Notes under the pieces: model-generated
Database searches by the model: none
The model's input: the letters and a program-made list of their open reading frames with translations, nothing else
Told to the model about the DNA's origin: nothing
Assembly: GCA_036493475.1 (NCBI GenBank)
Contig: DASXPS010000147.1
Span: forward strand, 1-64,000
Direction: 5' to 3'
Source of the DNA: Sporichthyaceae bacterium
GTDB lineage: Bacteria > Actinomycetota > Actinomycetes > Sporichthyales > Sporichthyaceae
Length of the DNA stretch: 64,000 nucleotides
Translations under genes and position numbers: made by a program
Part shown: positions 4,573 to 38,229 of the stretch, piece by piece
How the letters are laid out: every line of letters begins with the position of its first letter
Position numbering within the stretch: position 1 is the first letter of the stretch

Positions 4573-4654
4573 GAGGGAGGGGGGGTCGACGGGCATGGCG
4601 CACAGCATTCCGGACGCGTCCGCTGACAGCGGAATCCGGTCGGAATGAAGCCGG

Positions 4655-4675
4655 GTTGAGTCGTGTTGACGCAAG
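4655..4675 (+). promoter_or_regulatory. HAIR-like operator (probable HspR site) upstream of lon
   Basis: GTTGAGT-N7-ACGCAAG matches 12 of 14 positions of the HspR-associated inverted repeat (CTTGAGT-N7-ACTCAAG). A second partial palindrome, TTGA-N5-TCAA, follows at 4679-4691. It ends 27 bp before the lon start codon and overlaps a TTGACG hexamer that could be a -35. In Streptomyces lon is part of the HspR regulon, so heat-shock repression of lon is the likely role. Confidence 0.7.
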
Positions 4676-4702
4676 TCTTGAACGGCTCAATTAAGGGGTC
4701 CC

Positions 4703-7045
4703 ATGAGCGAGATGACGCTGCCGCTGTTGCCGCTGGACGGCCTGGTCGTGCTGCCCGGCATGGTGCTGCCGCTGGCCCTGAGCGACGCCGAGACCCGCGC
4801 CGCCGTCGAGGCGGCGCAGGCCTCCGCCCCGGAGGCCCAGGCCAGGGTGCTGCTCGTTCCCCGGCTGAACGGCAAGTACACGACGGTCGGCACGGTCGCG
4901 GTGATCGAGCAGGTCGGCCGGATGCGCGGCGGGGAGCACGTCGCGGTGGTCCGCGGCACCGGGCGGGTGCGCATCGGCACCGGGACCTCCGGGCCGGGCG
5001 CGGCGCTGTGGGTCGAGGTCACCGAACTGCCGGAGGTCGTCGAGGAGTCGGCGACCGTGCTGGCGCGGGAGTACAAGGCGCTGGCCACCTCGATCCTGCA
5101 GCAGCGCGGCGCCTGGCAATTCGTGGACGCGCTGCCCGGGGTGGACGACCCGTCCGCGCTGGCCGACGTGGCCGGCTACGCCCCCTACCTGACGCGGGAT
5201 CAGAAGATCGTGCTGCTGGAGACGACCGACGTCGCCGAGCGGTTGACCAAGCTGGTCGCGTGGAGCCGGGAGCACCTGACCGAGCTCGACGTCGCGGAGA
5301 GCATCCGCAAGGACGTCGCGGAGGGCATGGAGAAGCAGCAGCGCGAGTTCTTGCTGCGCCAGCAGCTGGCCGCGATCCGCAAGGAGCTGGCCGAGCTGTC
5401 CGGCGCCCCGGCGACCGAGGAGCAGGACTACCGCGCCAGGGTCGAGGCCGCGGCGCTGCCGGAGAAGGTGCGTGAGGCCGCGTTGGCCGAGGTGGACAAG
5501 CTGGAGCGCACCTCCGAACAATCCCCCGAGGTCGGCTGGATCCGGACATGGCTGGACACGATCCTCGACCTGCCGTGGGGGGAGCACACCGACGACGCCT
5601 ACGACATGGCGGGCGCGCGGGCGGTGCTCGACGCGGACCACGCCGGGCTGGACGACGTGAAGGACCGCGTCGTGGAATATCTGGCGGTGCGCAAGCGGCG
5701 CGCCGACCGGGGGCTCGGCGTGGTCGGCGGACGGCGGTCCGGTGCCGTGCTGGCGCTGGTCGGCCCGCCCGGTGTGGGCAAGACGTCGCTGGGTGAGTCG
5801 GTGGCCCGGGCCATGGGACGCAAGTTCGTCCGGGTGGCGCTGGGTGGGGTGCGGGACGAGGCCGAGATCCGTGGCCACCGCAAGACCTACGTCGGCGCCA
5901 TGGCGGGCCGCATCGCCCGGGCGATCAAAGAGGCCGGGTCGATGAACCCGGTCATGCTGCTCGACGAGGTGGACAAGCTCGGCGCGGACTACCGCGGCGA
6001 TCCGACCGCGGCGCTGTTGGAGGTGCTGGACCCGGCGCAGAACCACACCTTCCGGGACCACTACCTGGAGGTCGAGCTCGACCTGTCCGACGTGCTGTTC
6101 CTGGCCACGGCCAACACCTTGGAGTCCATCCCCGGTCCGCTGCTGGACCGGATGGAGCTGATCCGGCTGGACGGCTACACCGAGGAGGAGAAGGTCGTCA
6201 TCGCCCGCGATCACCTGATGCTACGTCAGATCGAGCGGGCGGGTCTGACGGCGGACGAGGTGTCCATCACCGACGAGGCGTTGCGTCGATTGGCCGCGGA
6301 GTACACCCGCGAGGCCGGGGTGCGGGACCTGGAGCGGTCCATCGCCCGGGTGCTGCGCAAGGTCGCGGCCCGGCCGCAGGACGCCGAGCCGGTCACCGTC
6401 GATCCGGACAACCTGGCGACCTACGTCGGACGGCCGCGGCACCTGCCCGAGTCGGCCGAACGCACCGCCCTACCGGGCGTGGCGACCGGCCTGGCGGTCA
6501 CCGGCGCGGGCGGCGACGTGCTGTTCATCGAAGCGTCGCTGGCCGAGGCGGAAACCGGCACGACCGGGGTCACCATCACCGGTCAGCTCGGTGAGGTGAT
6601 GAAGGAGTCCGCGCAGATCGCGCTGTCCTTCCTGCGCTCCAACGGCGCGGCGCTGGGCGTGCCCACCGCGCAGCTGCACGACCGCAGCGTGCACCTGCAC
6701 GTGCCCGCGGGTGCGGTGCCGAAGGACGGCCCGAGCGCCGGCATCACCATGACCACGGCGCTGGCCTCGTTGCTGTCCGGCCGTCCGGTGCGCTCCGACG
6801 TCGCGATGACCGGTGAGGTGTCGCTGACCGGGCGGGTGCTGCCGATCGGTGGCGTCAAGCAGAAGCTGCTCGCCGCGCACCGGGCCGGTATCACCACGGT
6901 GCTGATCCCGGCGCGCAACGAGCCGGACCTGGACGACGTGCCGGAGGCGGTGCGGGAGAAGCTGACCATTCACCCGGTCAGCGACGTCCGTGACGTGCTG
7001 CGCCTGGCGCTGACCGAGGTGGACGCTGCCGCCCTGGCCGCCTGA
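4703..7045 (+). CDS. lon: ATP-dependent Lon protease
   Basis: Cytoplasmic AAA+ protease that degrades damaged and regulatory proteins. Full length at 780 residues. An N-terminal substrate-binding (LAN) domain occupies about residues 5-195. The AAA+ module has Walker A GPPGVGKT (354-361) and Walker [10 protein letters not shown]. The C-terminal serine-lysine protease domain has Ser678 in PKDGPSAG and Lys719 in PIGGVK. ATG at 4703 is preceded by AAGGGG. The start region carries a HAIR-like operator, so heat-shock control is expected. A large stem-loop follows the stop. Confidence 0.97.
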
Positions 7046-7051
7046 CCCGCA

Positions 7052-7097
7052 GGCGTCCGCTCAACAGTGAGCTATAGCTCACGGTGGAGCGGACGCC
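7052..7097. terminator. Large stem-loop between lon and the DUF2630 gene
   Basis: Outer arms GGCGTCCGCTC (7052-7062) and GAGCGGACGCC (7087-7097) are perfectly complementary. Inside them is the perfect palindrome GTGAGCTATAGCTCAC (7067-7082). It lies 7 nt after the lon stop, between convergent genes, so a bidirectional terminator is the simplest reading. There is no T-run. Confidence 0.6.
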
Positions 7098-7122
7098 CGG
7101 CGGACGTGGGCGGTGCCGGGGA

Positions 7123-7353
7123 TTACTGGAGGTACTGCTCGACCTCGGGGATGGGGCGGGCATGCGCTTCGGCCGGGTCCTTGCCGAATTCGCGCAGGGC
7201 CTGACGCTGCCGGAGCAGGTCCCAGCACTGGTCGAGCTGCTGCTCGACCCGGGCCCGGTGGGCCTGCCGCTCCGCGCTGGTCTCGGTGTCGACGGCCAGC
7301 GCCTTCTCCTCGCTCACCAGCGCAGCGACCTTGGCCAGAATGTCCTCATCCAT
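7123..7353 (-). CDS. DUF2630 family small protein
   Basis: A 76-residue, highly charged helical protein starting MDEDILAKVAALVSEE and containing the family core QLDQCWDLLRQRQALRE with a C-terminal VEQYLQ. This resembles DUF2630, a short actinobacterial family of unknown function. ATG at 7353 is the only start that gives the family length; the frame extends upstream only as an open reading frame antisense to the ACT gene. It is convergent with lon and divergent from the ACT-domain gene 52 bp away. No function can be assigned. Confidence 0.8.
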   Translation of the reverse strand: MDEDILAKVAALVSEEKALAVDTETSAERQAHRARVEQQLDQCWDLLRQRQALREFGKDPAEAHARPIPEVEQYLQ

Positions 7354-7405
7354 ACCGGGAGTATGCCTGCACAGCGCCGGGGCGCACGGACTAGCCTGCC
7401 GCGGT

Positions 7406-7798
7406 ATGGCACATATGGCAGTGGACCTGGTCATCGACGTGGTGAACAGCCCCGGAGCCCTGGCCCGGGTGGCGGCCGCGATCAGTGATGCGGGGGTGAA
7501 CATCGCGGCGGCGACCTGCGTGGGCAAGCACGAGCAGGCGGAGATGCACATCCTCGTGCCGCATGCCGAGGCGGCGAAGCACGCGCTGTCCATCTCCGGG
7601 CTCACAGTCAGTCACGAGCACCACGTGGTGGTGGTCGACGTGGTCGACCGACCCGGCGTGCTCGCGGACCTGGCCCGCAAGATTGCCGAGGCCGGCGTCA
7701 ACCTGGAAGTGGTGTACGTGGCCACCCGGGACCGCGTGGTGTTCGGCTCGCCCGACCTGGCCGCGCTGAAAAAGGTCCTGGGCGTCCCGGAGTTGTGA
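7406..7798 (+). CDS. Tandem ACT-domain protein
   Basis: 130 residues with two ACT-type regulatory domains. The first (about 4-65) is VDLVIDVVNSPGALARVAAA, and the second (about 70-128) is VVVDVVDRPGVLADLARKI. The glycine/proline ligand-site pattern is present in each. ACT domains bind amino acids or other small ligands; with no catalytic domain here, the protein is a stand-alone sensor or partner subunit of unknown target. ATG at 7406 is chosen because the upstream codons are not conserved-looking. Its stop overlaps the next gene's GTG start (GTGA), so it heads a three-gene operon with the SRPBCC and HAD genes. Confidence 0.85.
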   Translation: MAHMAVDLVIDVVNSPGALARVAAAISDAGVNIAAATCVGKHEQAEMHILVPHAEAAKHALSISGLTVSHEHHVVVVDVVDRPGVLADLARKIAEAGVNLEVVYVATRDRVVFGSPDLAALKKVLGVPEL

Positions 7799-8265
7799 AC
7801 CACCACGCGATTCCCTGGCCCGACCTGAGCGGCCGGCCGCATGCGCACGTGGTGGAGCGCGACATGGTCGCCTCGGCGCCGGCCATCTACCGAGCCTGGA
7901 CCGTGCACTGCGACCGCTGGTTGTCGCTGCCCGGCCGGGCGCTGATGCGGGCCGAGGTCGGGGAGCCGTTCTACTTCGAGACCGAGTTCAACAACCGGCG
8001 CTACCCGCACTACGGCCGGTTCCTGGTGCTGGAGCCGGACCGGCGCATCGTGCTGACCTGGGTGACCGGGCCGAACGGCACCGGGGGCGTGGAGACGGTA
8101 TTGAGCATCGAGCTCACCCCGGCCCACTCGGGCACCCACGTGCGCCTGGCGCATGCCGGCTTCCTCACCGAGGCCGCCAGCCGGGAGCATGAGCACGCCT
8201 GGCACGTGGTGTTGCGCAATCTGGATGCCGTACTGGTCGACGAGCCGATCGAGGAGGAACTGTGA
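7795..8265 (+). CDS. SRPBCC / AHSA1-like domain protein
   Basis: 156-residue protein of the START/SRPBCC superfamily, a hydrophobic-cavity fold. The AHSA1-like pattern is visible in the opening helix and strand (HVVERDMVASAPAIYRAWT), the central FLVLEPDRRIVLTW and the C-terminal helix beginning EHEHAWHVVLRNLDAVL. No catalytic residues can be assigned and the ligand is unknown. The GTG start at 7795 overlaps the preceding stop and the gene's own stop overlaps the next GTG, so translation is probably coupled across all three genes. Confidence 0.78.
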   Translation: MNHHAIPWPDLSGRPHAHVVERDMVASAPAIYRAWTVHCDRWLSLPGRALMRAEVGEPFYFETEFNNRRYPHYGRFLVLEPDRRIVLTWVTGPNGTGGVETVLSIELTPAHSGTHVRLAHAGFLTEAASREHEHAWHVVLRNLDAVLVDEPIEEEL

Positions 8266-8921
8266 AGCCGGAAGCCGTCGCCTTCGACGTGATGGAGACG
8301 CTGATCTCGCTGGAGCCGCTGGGTGAGCGGTTGACCGACGTCGGGTTGCCCGCCAACGCCGTGCATGCGTGGTTCCCGCGCACCTTGTTGTACGGGCTGG
8401 GGTTGTCCGTGGTCGGGGACTACATCCCGTTCCCGGTCGCCGCGGCGGAGTCGCTGCGCGCGGTCAGCCGGCACACGCTGAGCGATGACCAGGTCGCCCA
8501 CGTACTGGCCGGCGTCAAGGAGTTGCCCGCGCACCCGGACGTGGCGGCGTGCATGAAGACGTTGGCCTCCGGTGGCGTACGGATGATCTGCCTGACCAAC
8601 GGGTCCGCGGAGATCACCGGCAATTTCCTGGACCGCAACGGGCTGAGCGACTACATCGAGTCGGTGGCGACCACCGCCGAGGTGGGTACCTGGAAGCCGC
8701 CCGCGGCGGTGTATCACCACGGCTGCGCCCGGCTCGGTCTGATGCCCCATCAGGTGGCGTTGGTGGCGGTGCACGCCTGGGACTGTCACGGAGCGAAGAA
8801 AGCCGGGCTGATGGCCGGCTGGGCGGCGCGCGCCGAGGGCAAGTACGGGGAGATCTTCACCCCGGCCGACGTCATGGGCGAGGACCTGGTCGAGGTGGCC
8901 GAGGGCCTGGTGGCGCTCTGA
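8262..8921 (+). CDS. HAD-superfamily hydrolase, haloacid dehalogenase type II-like
   Basis: 219-residue HAD hydrolase. Motif I is FDVMETL, with Asp9 as the nucleophile; motif II is LTNGS, motif III is the Lys of TWKPP and motif IV is HAWDCHGA. The lack of a second Asp two residues after the nucleophile (DVME rather than DxD) points to the dehalogenase or type II branch rather than a phosphatase. The cap region lies between residues about 15 and 95. The substrate is unknown. The GTG start overlaps the SRPBCC stop. Last gene of the ACT-SRPBCC-HAD operon. Confidence 0.82.
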   Translation: MKPEAVAFDVMETLISLEPLGERLTDVGLPANAVHAWFPRTLLYGLGLSVVGDYIPFPVAAAESLRAVSRHTLSDDQVAHVLAGVKELPAHPDVAACMKTLASGGVRMICLTNGSAEITGNFLDRNGLSDYIESVATTAEVGTWKPPAAVYHHGCARLGLMPHQVALVAVHAWDCHGAKKAGLMAGWAARAEGKYGEIFTPADVMGEDLVEVAEGLVAL

Positions 8922-9119
8922 CGCGGCCGTGAGTGCCGAGGGGCGCCCGGATGCCAAGGGCGCGGCCCGTTTTCTCGGTCCGGGTCGACCCCCGATGCCC
9001 GTCACCCGGGCGCCCGTGGTGCGCCCGACCGCGGACGGCAAACGTGACGTGGTCGGGCGGGACTTGGAGTCACGAAAGCCGCGATTCGGTTCCATGGGAC
9101 GTCGCGGGCGAAATGGCGT

Positions 9120-31468: not shown

Positions 31469-31507
31469 TCGTCGGGGCAGGCGGCGCTACACTGCTCCCG
31501 CAGTCCT

Positions 31508-31581
31508 GCGGGTGTAGTTCAATGGCAGAACATCAGCTTCCCAAGCTGACAGTGCGGGTTCGATTCCCGCTACCCGCTCCA
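31508..31581 (+). tRNA. tRNA-Gly (anticodon CCC)
   Basis: Complete cloverleaf: acceptor GCGGGTG / TACCCGC (one G-T pair), anticodon stem TCAGC / GCTGA with loop TTCCCAA (anticodon CCC), T-loop GGTTCGATTCC and an encoded CCA end. Its 3' 33 bp are repeated at 32602-32634. Confidence 0.96.
31549..31581 (+). repeat. Left copy of 33-bp direct repeat (3' end of tRNA-Gly; candidate attachment site)
   Basis: Covers the variable loop, T-arm, acceptor strand and CCA of the tRNA. It is identical to 32602-32634. This is the position used by tyrosine recombinases of integrative elements. Confidence 0.85.
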
Positions 31582-31720
31582 GCTGAACTGGGCTTTTTCT
31601 CTCTCCCTCATAGTCGCTGGCCATGGCTGCGAGTGGCCCTTGTAGGGCCCCTATGGACCGTGTTTTGGTCCGCGTTCGGTCCACGTCCCGGGTCGTCGGA
31701 CGAGCGCGACACTCCAACAA

Positions 31721-31750
31721 TGTATATACTGCCTCGACGTCTTGTATATA
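31721..31750 (+). promoter_or_regulatory. Direct repeats TGTATATA in the vapBC promoter of the island
   Basis: TGTATATA occurs at 31721-31728 and 31743-31750, 22 bp apart centre to centre, in the only strongly AT-rich stretch near the genes and 10 bp before the vapB start. Probable -10 region and autoregulatory binding sites. Confidence 0.5.
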
Positions 31751-31760
31751 TGGGGTGATT

Positions 31761-31967
31761 ATGGCGAAGACGTTGATCGACATCGACGAGGCTCTATTGG
31801 AGCGGGTCGCGGCGCAACTGGGGACGCGGACGAAGAAGGACACGGTGACCCGGGCGTTGGAGTTGGTGTTGCGGGCGGCCGCGTTCGACGACGCGGTGGA
31901 GTTCGCGCGGGCCGGGGGTCTGGACGACGCGAGTGACCCGGCGGTGATGAAGCAGGCATGGCGGTAG
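31761..31967 (+). CDS. VapB-type antitoxin (second TA pair)
   Basis: 68-residue antitoxin of the DUF2191/VapB type: an N-terminal strand-helix-helix (MAKTLIDIDEALLERVAAQLG, TKKDTVTRALELVLR) and an acidic C-terminal toxin-binding tail. ATG at 31761 follows GGGGTG. The last 10 nt overlap vapC, so the two are coupled. Located inside the tRNA-Gly mini-island. Confidence 0.87.
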   Translation: MAKTLIDIDEALLERVAAQLGTRTKKDTVTRALELVLRAAAFDDAVEFARAGGLDDASDPAVMKQAWR

Positions 31968-32398
31968 CCGACTACCTGCTCGACAAGAGCGCGTTGGCGC
32001 GTATCGGTGTCGAGCCGGTGGCGGGCAGGCTGCGTCCGCTGGTGGCCGCCGGTCGCACGGCGACCTGTGGGATGGTCGCGTTGGAGTTGTTGTTCTCCGC
32101 GCGCAACGGGCCCGACCACGAACGCATCCGTGACGGTTTGGGGGCTCACGAGTGGCTGGCGACCGAGGATGAGGACTTCGCTGCCGCGATCGATGTGCAG
32201 GCGCAGCTCGCGCGGACCGGGCATCACCGGGCGGTGCCGTTGCCGGACCTGCTGATCGCCGCGGTCGGCGCCCGGCACCGGGTCACCGTGCTGCACTACG
32301 ACGCTGACTTCGAGCGGATCGCCGCGGTCACCGGCCAGGCGGTGGAGTGGGTGGTGCCGCCAGGGTCGCTGGACGAGCCCGTCACCGGCACCCGATAG
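31958..32398 (+). CDS. VapC-type PIN-domain toxin (second TA pair)
   Basis: 146-residue PIN ribonuclease. Acidic residues are in ADYLLDKSALARI (Asp9), VALELLFSAR (Glu), PLPDLLIAA and YDADFERIA. It is unrelated in detail to the VapC at 11933-12379, which has the longer CRTTQQAFLRLL segment. It overlaps its antitoxin gene. As the only intact function left between the att-like repeats, it may stabilise the island by addiction (inference). Confidence 0.9.
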   Translation: MAVADYLLDKSALARIGVEPVAGRLRPLVAAGRTATCGMVALELLFSARNGPDHERIRDGLGAHEWLATEDEDFAAAIDVQAQLARTGHHRAVPLPDLLIAAVGARHRVTVLHYDADFERIAAVTGQAVEWVVPPGSLDEPVTGTR

Positions 32399-32601
32399 CA
32401 CCCCCGCCGTGCGCCGCCGGTCCGGAGTGAATGACGGCGCTGCTGGTGGGGTGGTTCTCCGACACCACGAACGGCCTTGGCGTCCTTCAGTGCCGCCTCA
32501 GCGTGCCGTGGCCCGTCCGAAGATGTGGTGGTCGTGCCGGTACCGGCGGCAGGCATTGCCTTTGAACGGGGAAATGATTGCTGGTCAGAACATCCCTCGA
32601 C

Positions 32602-32634
32602 ACAGTGCGGGTTCGATTCCCGCTACCCGCTCCA
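32602..32634 (+). repeat. Right copy of 33-bp direct repeat (tRNA-Gly 3' fragment)
   Basis: Identical to 31549-31581. Weaker similarity continues upstream (TCAGAACATC at 32585-32594 versus GCAGAACATC in the tRNA D-arm/anticodon region) but the anticodon stem is missing, so this is a non-functional tRNA fragment. It contains the stop codon and last codons of the minus-strand LLM gene. Confidence 0.85.
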
Positions 32635-33735
32635 CTCAGGAACAGCCGCCGAGCGGCCGGGTGCCCGTGGCGCTAAGGACTTCAGCCTCGGCATGACCTC
32701 GCGGGCGAAGGTGCGCATGTTCCGCTCGGCCTCCTCCGGTGGCATGCCGCCGTACCGGAAGACTCCCACGACGCTGTCGGATCCGACGAGATCGGAAAAG
32801 GCCACGATCTTCTCGAGGACCTGCTCCGGCGTGCCCCAGGCGTGCAGCCCGATGTAGAAGTCGGTCATCCGCTCCATGCCGCCGGGCGCGGTGAGCCGGT
32901 CATACATCAGCCCGTGGAACTCATAGCCGGGCGTGGCCTTCAGATGCGGTTTGTCGAACTCGTAATGGTCGACGACCGAGGCCCAGTACGCGCCGATGTA
33001 CTTTCGCGCCATCTGCTCGGCACGTTCGGCGTTCTCGTCGACGAACACCCACTGCCCCACGATTGGTGGCGGCGGCTCGGCCCCGATGGCCTGCAGGTAG
33101 GTCTGCCGGTACGTCGCGACATCCTCCGCAACCAGGTGCCACGGCTTCTGCGGGATGATCAGCACCCCGGTGCCCAGTTGCGCCATGATCTGCGCGGACT
33201 CCGGGGAGATTGTTGCGGAGTAGATGCGGTCCTTGAACGACGCGTACGGGCCCGGTCGCAGTTCGACCCGCGGCTGCTTGACGATCTCGCCGTCGAACTC
33301 CATGACGCCGGTCTCCAGCGCCTGCATGATGGCCAGCGCGGATTCCTTGAATGAGGTCCGCGCGGCCGACATCGGTACCCGCAGTCCGTCGAACTCCACC
33401 TTGCCGGTGCCGCGTCCGATGCCGAGGATCACGCGGCCGCGGGACATGTGGTCGAGCAGCAGGATCTGCTCGGCGGCGCGCAGGGGGTCGTGCCAGGGCA
33501 GCACCATCACCATCGATCCGAGTTTCACGGTCGTGGTCCGCCCGGCCAGGTAGGACAGGAACTGCAGGACGTCCGGGGACATCGCGTAGTTCGTGAAGTG
33601 GTGCTCCAGCCCCCAGACGGAGTCGAAACCCAGCGGCTCGGCGAGATCAGCCAACGCCAGATCTGCCGCCCACACCTCCCGATCGCTCAATGTGCCGGCG
33701 AAGGCCTGGAACACCGTCGTCATCCCGACGTGCAT
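32623..33735 (-). CDS. LLM-class flavin-dependent oxidoreductase (luciferase-like)
   Basis: 370-residue bacterial luciferase-like monooxygenase using FMNH2 or F420H2. Typical features are FDSVWGLEHHFTNYAMSPDV, the strand TVKLGSMVMVLPWHDPLRAAEQ and RVILGIGRGTGKVEFDG. ATG at 33735 has GAGGAGGG upstream. The last residues (PEWSG) and the stop codon are read from the tRNA-Gly 3' fragment, so integration or duplication there has defined the C-terminus. Substrate unknown. Confidence 0.88.
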   Translation of the reverse strand: MHVGMTTVFQAFAGTLSDREVWAADLALADLAEPLGFDSVWGLEHHFTNYAMSPDVLQFLSYLAGRTTTVKLGSMVMVLPWHDPLRAAEQILLLDHMSRGRVILGIGRGTGKVEFDGLRVPMSAARTSFKESALAIMQALETGVMEFDGEIVKQPRVELRPGPYASFKDRIYSATISPESAQIMAQLGTGVLIIPQKPWHLVAEDVATYRQTYLQAIGAEPPPPIVGQWVFVDENAERAEQMARKYIGAYWASVVDHYEFDKPHLKATPGYEFHGLMYDRLTAPGGMERMTDFYIGLHAWGTPEQVLEKIVAFSDLVGSDSVVGVFRYGGMPPEEAERNMRTFAREVMPRLKSLAPRAPGRSAAVPEWSG

Positions 33736-33894
33736 GGGTACTGCCCTCCTCGGCCACATCCGGACCTGCCGCCCGCGACGGAACCCCGGATTGGGTATCC
33801 ATCCTCACGCCGCCGGTCCGGTCCGCGGAGTCTGCCCCCTTGGTGCCGCTGTTTTGCCCGCGATGCCTAGGTCCGCCTGCACTGGCCCCGGCGA

Positions 33895-35283: not shown

Positions 35284-36249
35284 TTACACCGGCGGCAGGC
35301 CCTCGCGGCGCGGGAACACCCGACTGGCCCGGATGTCCGGAGCCGTCAGGGTCATCAGGTCCCCGCGCGAGATCGCCGTGTCCAGGGAAACCAGCCGATG
35401 CGCCTGGCGTAGCCGGGCCCGCTCCAGGGCGTTGCGCACGCTGCGCGCCTGCGCGAACCGGGGCTGGGTCATCCGCAACTGCAGGTACTCCGCGAACGTC
35501 GCCCGGGCTTCGTCGTCGAAGGCGTACTGATCACGGGACAACATCAACTCGGCGATCTCGGCCAACTCCGCCGGGGAGTAGTCGGCGAACTCGACGTGAT
35601 GAGCGACGCGTGAGCTCAACCCCGGATTCGAGGCGAAGAAGGTCTCCATGCGATCCGGGTAACCGGCGAAGATCACCGCCATGGCTCCGCGCGCCGCCTC
35701 CATCTCCTGCAACAGAATCTCGATCGCCTCCTGCCCGTAATCGCGTTCGTTGTCCGGCCGGTACAGGTAGTACGCCTCGTCGATGAACAGCACCCCGCCC
35801 GCGGCGCGGGCAATCGCCTCCTTGGTCTTCGGTGCGGTGTGCCCGATGAACTGGCCCACCAGGTCCTCCCGGGTGACGGCATGCACCCGCGGCACGCGGA
35901 GATAGCCCAGGGCGTGCAGGATCTCCGCCATCCGCAACGCCACCGTCGTCTTACCCGTGCCGGGCGCACCGGTGAAGCTCATGTGCAGCGAGGGAAGCCC
36001 GGCGGCCAGACCGAATCGGGTCCGGGCGCGGCCCACGGTGAGCTGCGCGGCGATCTCCCGGATGCGTTGTTTGACCGCGGCCAGCCCGACCAACTCGGCG
36101 TCCAGCGTCGCGAGGACGTCGTCGACCCGGGTGCGGGCCGGGTCCGCGCGCAGGTCGATCAGGTCCTCGGCGGTGAGCGCTGTCGGCTCCACGGCCTCGT
36201 CGCCGGCGGCGGGCGGGGTCGATCCGGGCCGCTGCATGTCGAAGCCCAC
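35284..36249 (-). CDS. cbbX: Red-type Rubisco activase CbbX
   Basis: 321-residue AAA+ protein that remodels inhibited red-type Rubisco by pulling on the large-subunit C-terminus. Walker A is GAPGTGKTT and Walker B is GVLFIDEAYYLY. The CbbX-specific pore region is REDLVGQFIGHTAPKTKEA, and VIFAGYPDRMETFFASNPGL is typical. It is a few bases downstream of cbbS in the operon cbbL-cbbS-cbbX. Confidence 0.95.
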   Translation of the reverse strand: MGFDMQRPGSTPPAAGDEAVEPTALTAEDLIDLRADPARTRVDDVLATLDAELVGLAAVKQRIREIAAQLTVGRARTRFGLAAGLPSLHMSFTGAPGTGKTTVALRMAEILHALGYLRVPRVHAVTREDLVGQFIGHTAPKTKEAIARAAGGVLFIDEAYYLYRPDNERDYGQEAIEILLQEMEAARGAMAVIFAGYPDRMETFFASNPGLSSRVAHHVEFADYSPAELAEIAELMLSRDQYAFDDEARATFAEYLQLRMTQPRFAQARSVRNALERARLRQAHRLVSLDTAISRGDLMTLTAPDIRASRVFPRREGLPPV

Positions 36250-36252
36250 GCC

Positions 36253-36678
36253 TCAGCCCTCGCCGTACCGGGCTCCACCGGGGCGCTCCGTGGCATAGGA
36301 GTGCACGCCGTAGCGCTGCACCCGGCCGTGCACCTCGACGCGGTCGAGGCGAAAGCCGGGCTCCTCCGCGGGGCGTTGCACCAGGAAGCTCAGCGCCGTG
36401 GTTTGCCGTCCCAGGCTCGGGTCGTAGGCCATGACGCGGACGTAGTGCTGCGGGAACGCCGCCCGACAGGCCTCGATCTCCCGCAGCACCCCGTCCGGCT
36501 GATCGAGATCGAACAGGGGGAGGCCCCACATGTCCCAGTACACGTTGCGTGGGTGCGGATCGTCGGTGTACTCGACGGACAGCGGCCAACCCCGATCCAG
36601 CGCGTAGCGAATCTGCTCGGCGATCTCCACCTCCTGCAGCGCAGGCAGGTAGGAGAACGTTCCGTGGCGCAGGTACAT
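36253..36678 (-). CDS. cbbS: Ribulose bisphosphate carboxylase small subunit
   Basis: 141 residues. Typical segments are [32 protein letters not shown] and [21 protein letters not shown]. The C-terminal extension ([19 protein letters not shown]), absent from green-type small subunits, marks a red-type form I enzyme and agrees with the presence of cbbX. It is 7 nt after cbbL. Confidence 0.96.
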
Positions 36679-36685
36679 GACTCTC

Positions 36686-38229
<1,544 letters not shown>

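Follow-up and report, generated by a model that had tools for sequence, protein, structure and literature searches.

The tRNA-Gly(CCC) gene of a Sporichthyaceae draft genome is probably the site of a decayed island, a CIME-like remnant that has kept the putative arm region of its left end and a VapBC toxin-antitoxin module of the VapC21 type, and that is most likely immobile. The stretch of DNA analysed (hereafter the window) covers 64 kb and lies on contig C147 of a 4.27-Mb, 217-contig assembly, the source genome. No integrase-like frame is present anywhere in the 64-kb window, nor was an integrase remnant found by tblastn or HMM searches between vapC and the distal copy of the tRNA end; the locus is therefore classed as a decayed remnant and not as an intact island.

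The history that we favour would begin with a tyrosine-integrase element like those that target tRNA-Gly(CCC) elsewhere in this class. On integration it would have restored the tRNA gene and moved the original 3′ end to a distance of 1 kb, so that the 3′ part of the present tRNA-Gly(CCC) presumably comes from the element. A later deletion would have taken away the integrase together with the right arm and whatever other cargo there was, and probably stopped inside the distal att copy, of which 33 bp were left. The survivors would be the arm region of the left end and a complete, self-regulated VapBC, whose present-day role may be that of an ordinary chromosomal module, in which VapB would repress its own promoter at TATA-like repeats and neutralise the VapC ribonuclease.

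The tRNA gene and the copy of its 3′ end

An intact tRNA and an exact 33-bp copy of its 3′ end had been described, in a reading of the sequence only, as bracketing vapBC with an AT-rich promoter, and this anatomy (Table 1) is borne out by ARAGORN, by the repeat search and by a scan for the T-arm pattern. In particular, ARAGORN detects no other tRNA in the 64-kb window, and the two copies form an exact direct repeat on the same strand, anchored at the 3′ end of the tRNA, whose final base is included in the distal copy. The window contains exactly two T-arm motifs, both within the 33-bp copies; since the reversed pattern, used as a control with two mismatches allowed, gave no match in a sample of 395 genomes, chance is excluded for this pair. 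The promoter side is indeed AT-richer, with a GC content of 58% at 31500-31749 versus about 66-70% in the surroundings. The further claim that the interval holds nothing else stands as far as genes are concerned, no other coding gene having been identified, but it leaves out the roughly 180 bp ahead of vapB, whose DNA resembles the left end of an element. From downstream of the distal copy, a luciferase-like gene (32623-33759) enters on the opposite strand; farther along the window (35284-38209, minus strand), the translations reveal a CbbX-like AAA protein and a RuBisCO large-subunit-like ORF.

Table 1. Features of the tRNA-Gly(CCC) locus, in window coordinates
Feature	Position	Strand	Basis
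tRNA-Gly(CCC), intact; attB-type target	31508..31581	+	ARAGORN
Proximal copy of the 33-bp att-type repeat (tRNA positions 42-74)	31549..31581	+	Repeat search
Element left end (attL arm side)	31582..31690	+	Alignment with left-end DNA of elements that carry an integrase and occupy this tRNA
Three tandem 11-bp repeats, GGACCGTGTTT / GGTCCGCGTTC / GGTCCACGTCC, putative integrase arm-type sites	31655..31688	+	Top 1.1% of window segments
Putative VapB operator/promoter, TGTATATAC-N12-TTGTATATA	31721..31750	+	Half-site comparison with homologues
vapB antitoxin, 68 aa	31761..31967	+	PF09957, E 2.6e-5
vapC toxin, PIN domain, 146 aa	31958..32398	+	PIN PF01850, E 2.3e-8
Non-coding remainder	32399..32601	.	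No integrase remnant (tblastn, HMM)
Distal copy, 33-bp tRNA 3′ end (attR-type)	32602..32634	+	Repeat search

The distal copy is apparently truncated at tRNA position 42, where identity drops sharply from 100% to near-random. Just upstream of it, TGGtCAGAACATC offers a further short match of 12 nt to TGG-CAGAACATC of the tRNA, roughly in the tRNA register, with a score attained by 1.3% of window segments; this weakly significant similarity is to some extent compatible with a longer original copy or with a duplication of the tRNA. In the latter case, a tandem copy of the gene would have decayed, with vapBC lying or landing between the two, and an integrase would never have been involved. A second copy is not recognisable along the whole tRNA length, as it is exact only from position 42 and is joined by no more than the 12-nt match upstream, and the sharpness of the boundary argues against such a duplication.

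Left-end similarity and the tRNA-Gly(CCC) site in relatives

Larger islands at this tRNA, which the sequence-only reading had suggested looking for in related genomes, do occur, and they carry integrases. The genus consists of two genomes, the source genome and G001, whose tRNA-Gly(CCC) genes are identical across 74 nt. In G001 the tRNA is on contig C15, and its 3′ end is found again on C70, a contig of 3.2 kb, with 98% identity over 48 nt and a perfect match in the last 45; adjoining this copy are a tyrosine integrase (PF00589, E 4.7e-20) and a toxin that is also a PIN protein but of another type than the source VapC. The assembly has C15 and C70 as separate contigs, which may or may not be opposite ends of a single element. 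In G115, the second copy measures 47 bp and is found 7.7 kb downstream of the tRNA, adjacent to an integrase 46% identical to that of G001, and islands with integrases are found at tRNA-Gly(CCC) also in other families of the class. This tRNA occurs across the class and, in the loci examined, is often placed behind a gene that is dcd-like by protein sequence, which is not so in the source genome. Over 39 tRNA-Gly(CCC) loci, the integrase matches (seven near the tRNA and one beyond a distal copy) are all downstream and none upstream. The repeat blocks in the islands of six relatives start at positions 23-30 of their own tRNA and measure 43-51 bp, and G054 has a 27-bp block starting at position 48; the loci surveyed were partly picked for fragments already seen, and these counts are not an unbiased rate. 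By these comparisons, tRNA-Gly(CCC) is an integration hotspot across this actinobacterial class.

The region 3′ of the source tRNA resembles the left ends of these elements. The 125 bp that follow the tRNA were aligned with six references, and significance was expressed as the share of 2000 window segments attaining the same local score: this share is 0.46% for G001, 0.15% for G004 and 0% for G115, and the alignment is not significant for G002, G003 and contig C70 of G001 (three of the six references significant). The 125 bp past the distal copy align with none of the six. The alignment with G001 includes ACCGTGTTTTGGTCCGCGTTCGGTCCACG against ACCGGGTTTTAGCCCACGTTTAGCCCACG, and the tandem 11-bp repeats stand at the same place as three repeats of GTCCCACGTTG type in G115, where they read GTCCCACGTTG-GTCCCACGCTC-GTCCCACG, and two of TTAGCCCACG in G001. 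The left 125 bp would thus belong to an integrated element, as the arm region of its tRNA-proximal end, and the repeats would be predicted to act as arm sites. The non-coding remainder after vapC, in which inspection by eye recognised no right-arm repeats, is presumed to be the scar of the deletion, at the former place of the integrase and of the right arm.

The hotspot with its integrase-bearing islands, the left-end homology and the 3′-anchored, same-strand repeats found only downstream give good support to site-specific integration at the tRNA, as had been proposed. The same evidence is contrary to a tandem tRNA duplication, given that the copies in relatives are partial blocks anchored at the 3′ end, several of them adjoining integrases, and that the left end is homologous to integrase elements; we regard a duplication as quite improbable. 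Weighing against the decayed-island reading, besides the three non-significant references for the left end, are the limited size of the genus, with two genomes, and flanks that are not syntenic between G001 and the source genome. Within the family, the luciferase-like flank gene has best matches of only 36% identity, and in G002 and G003 the upstream gene of 126 aa is not a neighbour of PPK2. Furthermore, the two 33-bp copies are perfectly identical, though an old, unselected attR copy should drift; this identity implies that the decay is not very old or that the copies were homogenised.

A precedent at the same tRNA is offered by G056 (L142, G056:C1:620000-639999), in which a 3.6-kb unit carries PIN-like and HTH/ImmA-like ORFs, as read by eye from the ORFs, and retains, of an element like that of G019, only a stretch of about 200 bp, which matches its left end and integrase tail with 75% identity. 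Past the distal copy of this unit there is a second left end, followed by an integrase 84% identical to that of G019. In G004, which belongs to the family (L135, G004:C96), a small ORF resembling a DUF433-type antitoxin lies about 400-640 bp 3′ of tRNA-Gly(CCC) and could be the family's third gene of toxin-antitoxin type at this site.

The VapBC module

The order of the module, with a small antitoxin gene upstream of the toxin gene and a 10-bp overlap between them, is accompanied by a well-preserved toxin: D9, E43, D97, D115 and D117 of VapC are invariant among 82-85 aligned homologues, and the best solved relative is Mycobacterium tuberculosis VapC21 (PDB 5sv2, E 8e-30). In front of vapB, the putative operator has counterparts in homologues, of which 9 out of 24 have at least two GTATA/TATAC motifs within the 70 bp 5′ of vapB, versus 1 of 1200 background segments; Mycolicibacterium homologues carry CGTATATACTCAATCAAGACTTCGTATATACG at the position equivalent to the two half-sites. 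Judged by its sequence, this is a VapC21-type module with a conserved active site and a putative operator; it looks intact and self-regulated, and the source VapC would be expected to cleave RNA. Persistence by addiction, as had been suggested, is plausible, since it fits the intact catalytic residues and the putative operator; in fact, the deletion may have spared vapBC because its loss would free the toxin. No defence match was returned by PADLOC.

The GC content and GC3 of vapBC are host-like, so the module need not have come with the element. This composition is compatible with separate histories, in which the tRNA ends are the traces of an old, decayed element and vapBC reached the locus later, by insertion or translocation, or is native to it; in the same direction points the wide distribution of the VapC subfamily, mostly distant from tRNAs. 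Instead, a link with the island is favoured by other toxin-antitoxin-like modules in islands at the same tRNA (G001 and G056) and by L108, in which a fragment resembling tRNA-Gly(CCC) is found about 3 kb away from a VapBC 42% identical to that of the source. We consider separate histories very unlikely.

A general enrichment of the VapC subfamily near tRNAs was also considered and is not convincing, with 7 T-arm matches in 244 kb near VapC versus 14 in 1043 kb farther off. The matches near VapC in Kribbella (L107, L129 and L130) and in L123 are, by inspection, tmRNA 3′ ends beside an smpB-like gene, and the VapC relatives near tRNA-Thr (L086 and L087) and tRNA-Gly(TCC) (G001 and G002) have no second tRNA copy.

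Two other loci combine VapBC with copies of tRNA ends. In a Nitriliruptoraceae MAG (L069, PWTE01000231.1, 3719-14544), tRNA-Arg(ACG) is followed by three more copies of its 3′ end (41-45 bp), and after each copy there are a short ORF resembling the N-terminal or central part of an integrase and a cargo of its own. One of these ORFs matches PF22022 and none has a detected catalytic domain; a search of that genome for a full-length integrase with the same N-terminus found none. One of the units carries a VapBC 50% identical to that of the source, and in L083 the same tRNA-Arg-type fragment and the VapC are likewise 902 bp apart. In the source genome itself (L191, C69:18000-27570, 4618-8962), a 48-bp, 92% identical copy of the 3′ end of tRNA-Ser(GGA) is found 3.45 kb downstream of the tRNA; the interval holds only a 1066-aa protein of AAA/cyclase type and no integrase, and a second VapBC begins 113 bp past the copy.

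Integrase absence, mobility and known systems

The integrase of G001 has no match at E<=1e-10 in the 217-contig draft of the source genome, and 3-9 matches at this threshold in each of the four other genomes of the family (G001 to G004). The Phage_integrase matches of the source genome consist of two isolated genes that are possibly XerC/D, a weak partial match, and clusters at contig ends. In these clusters, on contigs C154, C199, C71, C26, C94, C53, C170 and C85, two to four integrase-family matches follow one another (three on each of the first three contigs), a pattern as expected of recombinase-in-trio (RIT-like) elements. The exact att sequence was not found in viral contigs, and phage or plasmid matches to the tRNA were discarded, being mostly phage or plasmid tRNA genes.

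The att block of the source locus, 33 bp from tRNA position 42, is devoid of the anticodon-loop part present in the six comparison islands. This short block, together with the lack of an integrase and of right-arm repeats, favours a deletion ending inside the distal copy. The sequence-only reading had also proposed that the cassette may be mobilised in trans, and this finds no support, as the source assembly has no G001-type integrase, the repeat is short and without the anticodon-loop part, and no right-arm repeats are seen by eye. Its description of an island stripped to a toxin-antitoxin module is instead supported, in the sense of decay.

The locus might nonetheless be a functional mini-element without integrase (a CIME or satellite), with working att sites and a VapBC cassette excised and moved by an integrase acting in trans. 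The left arm repeats are retained, related integrases are present in sister genomes, G056 has an integrase-less unit adjoining an integrase-bearing one at the same tRNA, and the integrase-less ssrA islands of Dehalococcoides have been described as possible cis-mobilizable elements (PMC3146451); moreover, the 33-bp core would suit an integrase with a T-arm crossover. Besides the missing anticodon-loop segment and right-arm repeats, however, the assembly holds no cognate integrase and no second copy of the vapBC cassette was found in the source genome, and we judge a functional mini-element unlikely. Candidate cognate integrases for the source att site are those on C70 of G001 and on C27 of G115. 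In a broader form, minimal integrase-free toxin-antitoxin cassettes at actinobacterial tRNAs would be moved by the integrases of other elements, making "tRNA end + VapBC + tRNA end" a transmissible unit, which we hold to be a long shot; if it were true, the tRNA-Arg tandem array of L069 would be the same phenomenon.

The decayed-island reading finds its closest parallel in CIMEs, the cis-mobilizable elements defined for decayed ICE/IME (PMC5704250), in which integration and transfer genes are likewise lost and tRNA-type att copies still bracket the cargo. A CIME keeps attL and attR, whereas the distal copy of the source locus is apparently truncated, with no right arm seen and no ICE/IME parent identified, and the remnant does not fully qualify as a CIME, since it is doubtful that its att sites are usable. 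The actinobacteriophages B22, E1, BritBrat and Spooky integrate at tRNA-Gly-CCC (PMC10865867, table 2), sharing with the source locus the isoacceptor, a common core at the 3′ end and a rebuilt tRNA; their cores are of 42-47 bp and they have an integrase gene, in contrast to 33 bp and none here. Mycobacteriophages commonly cross over in the anticodon loop (PMC10865867). The ssrA islands of Dehalococcoides are similarly made of units within direct repeats of the 3′ end of an RNA gene, some of them without an integration module, but they involve a serine recombinase, a tmRNA gene, reductive dehalogenase cargo and tandem arrays (PMC3146451). As for the cargo, M. tuberculosis VapBC21 (PDB 5sv2; PMC7517352) likewise pairs a PIN toxin with a VapB antitoxin, and its VapC is the closest solved one by sequence.

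The source locus is thus a further small instance of an already known type of decayed island. It provides an example of how small a tRNA island may become through decay: the coding cargo left is a toxin-antitoxin pair, an outcome to be expected if modules of this kind withstand deletion.
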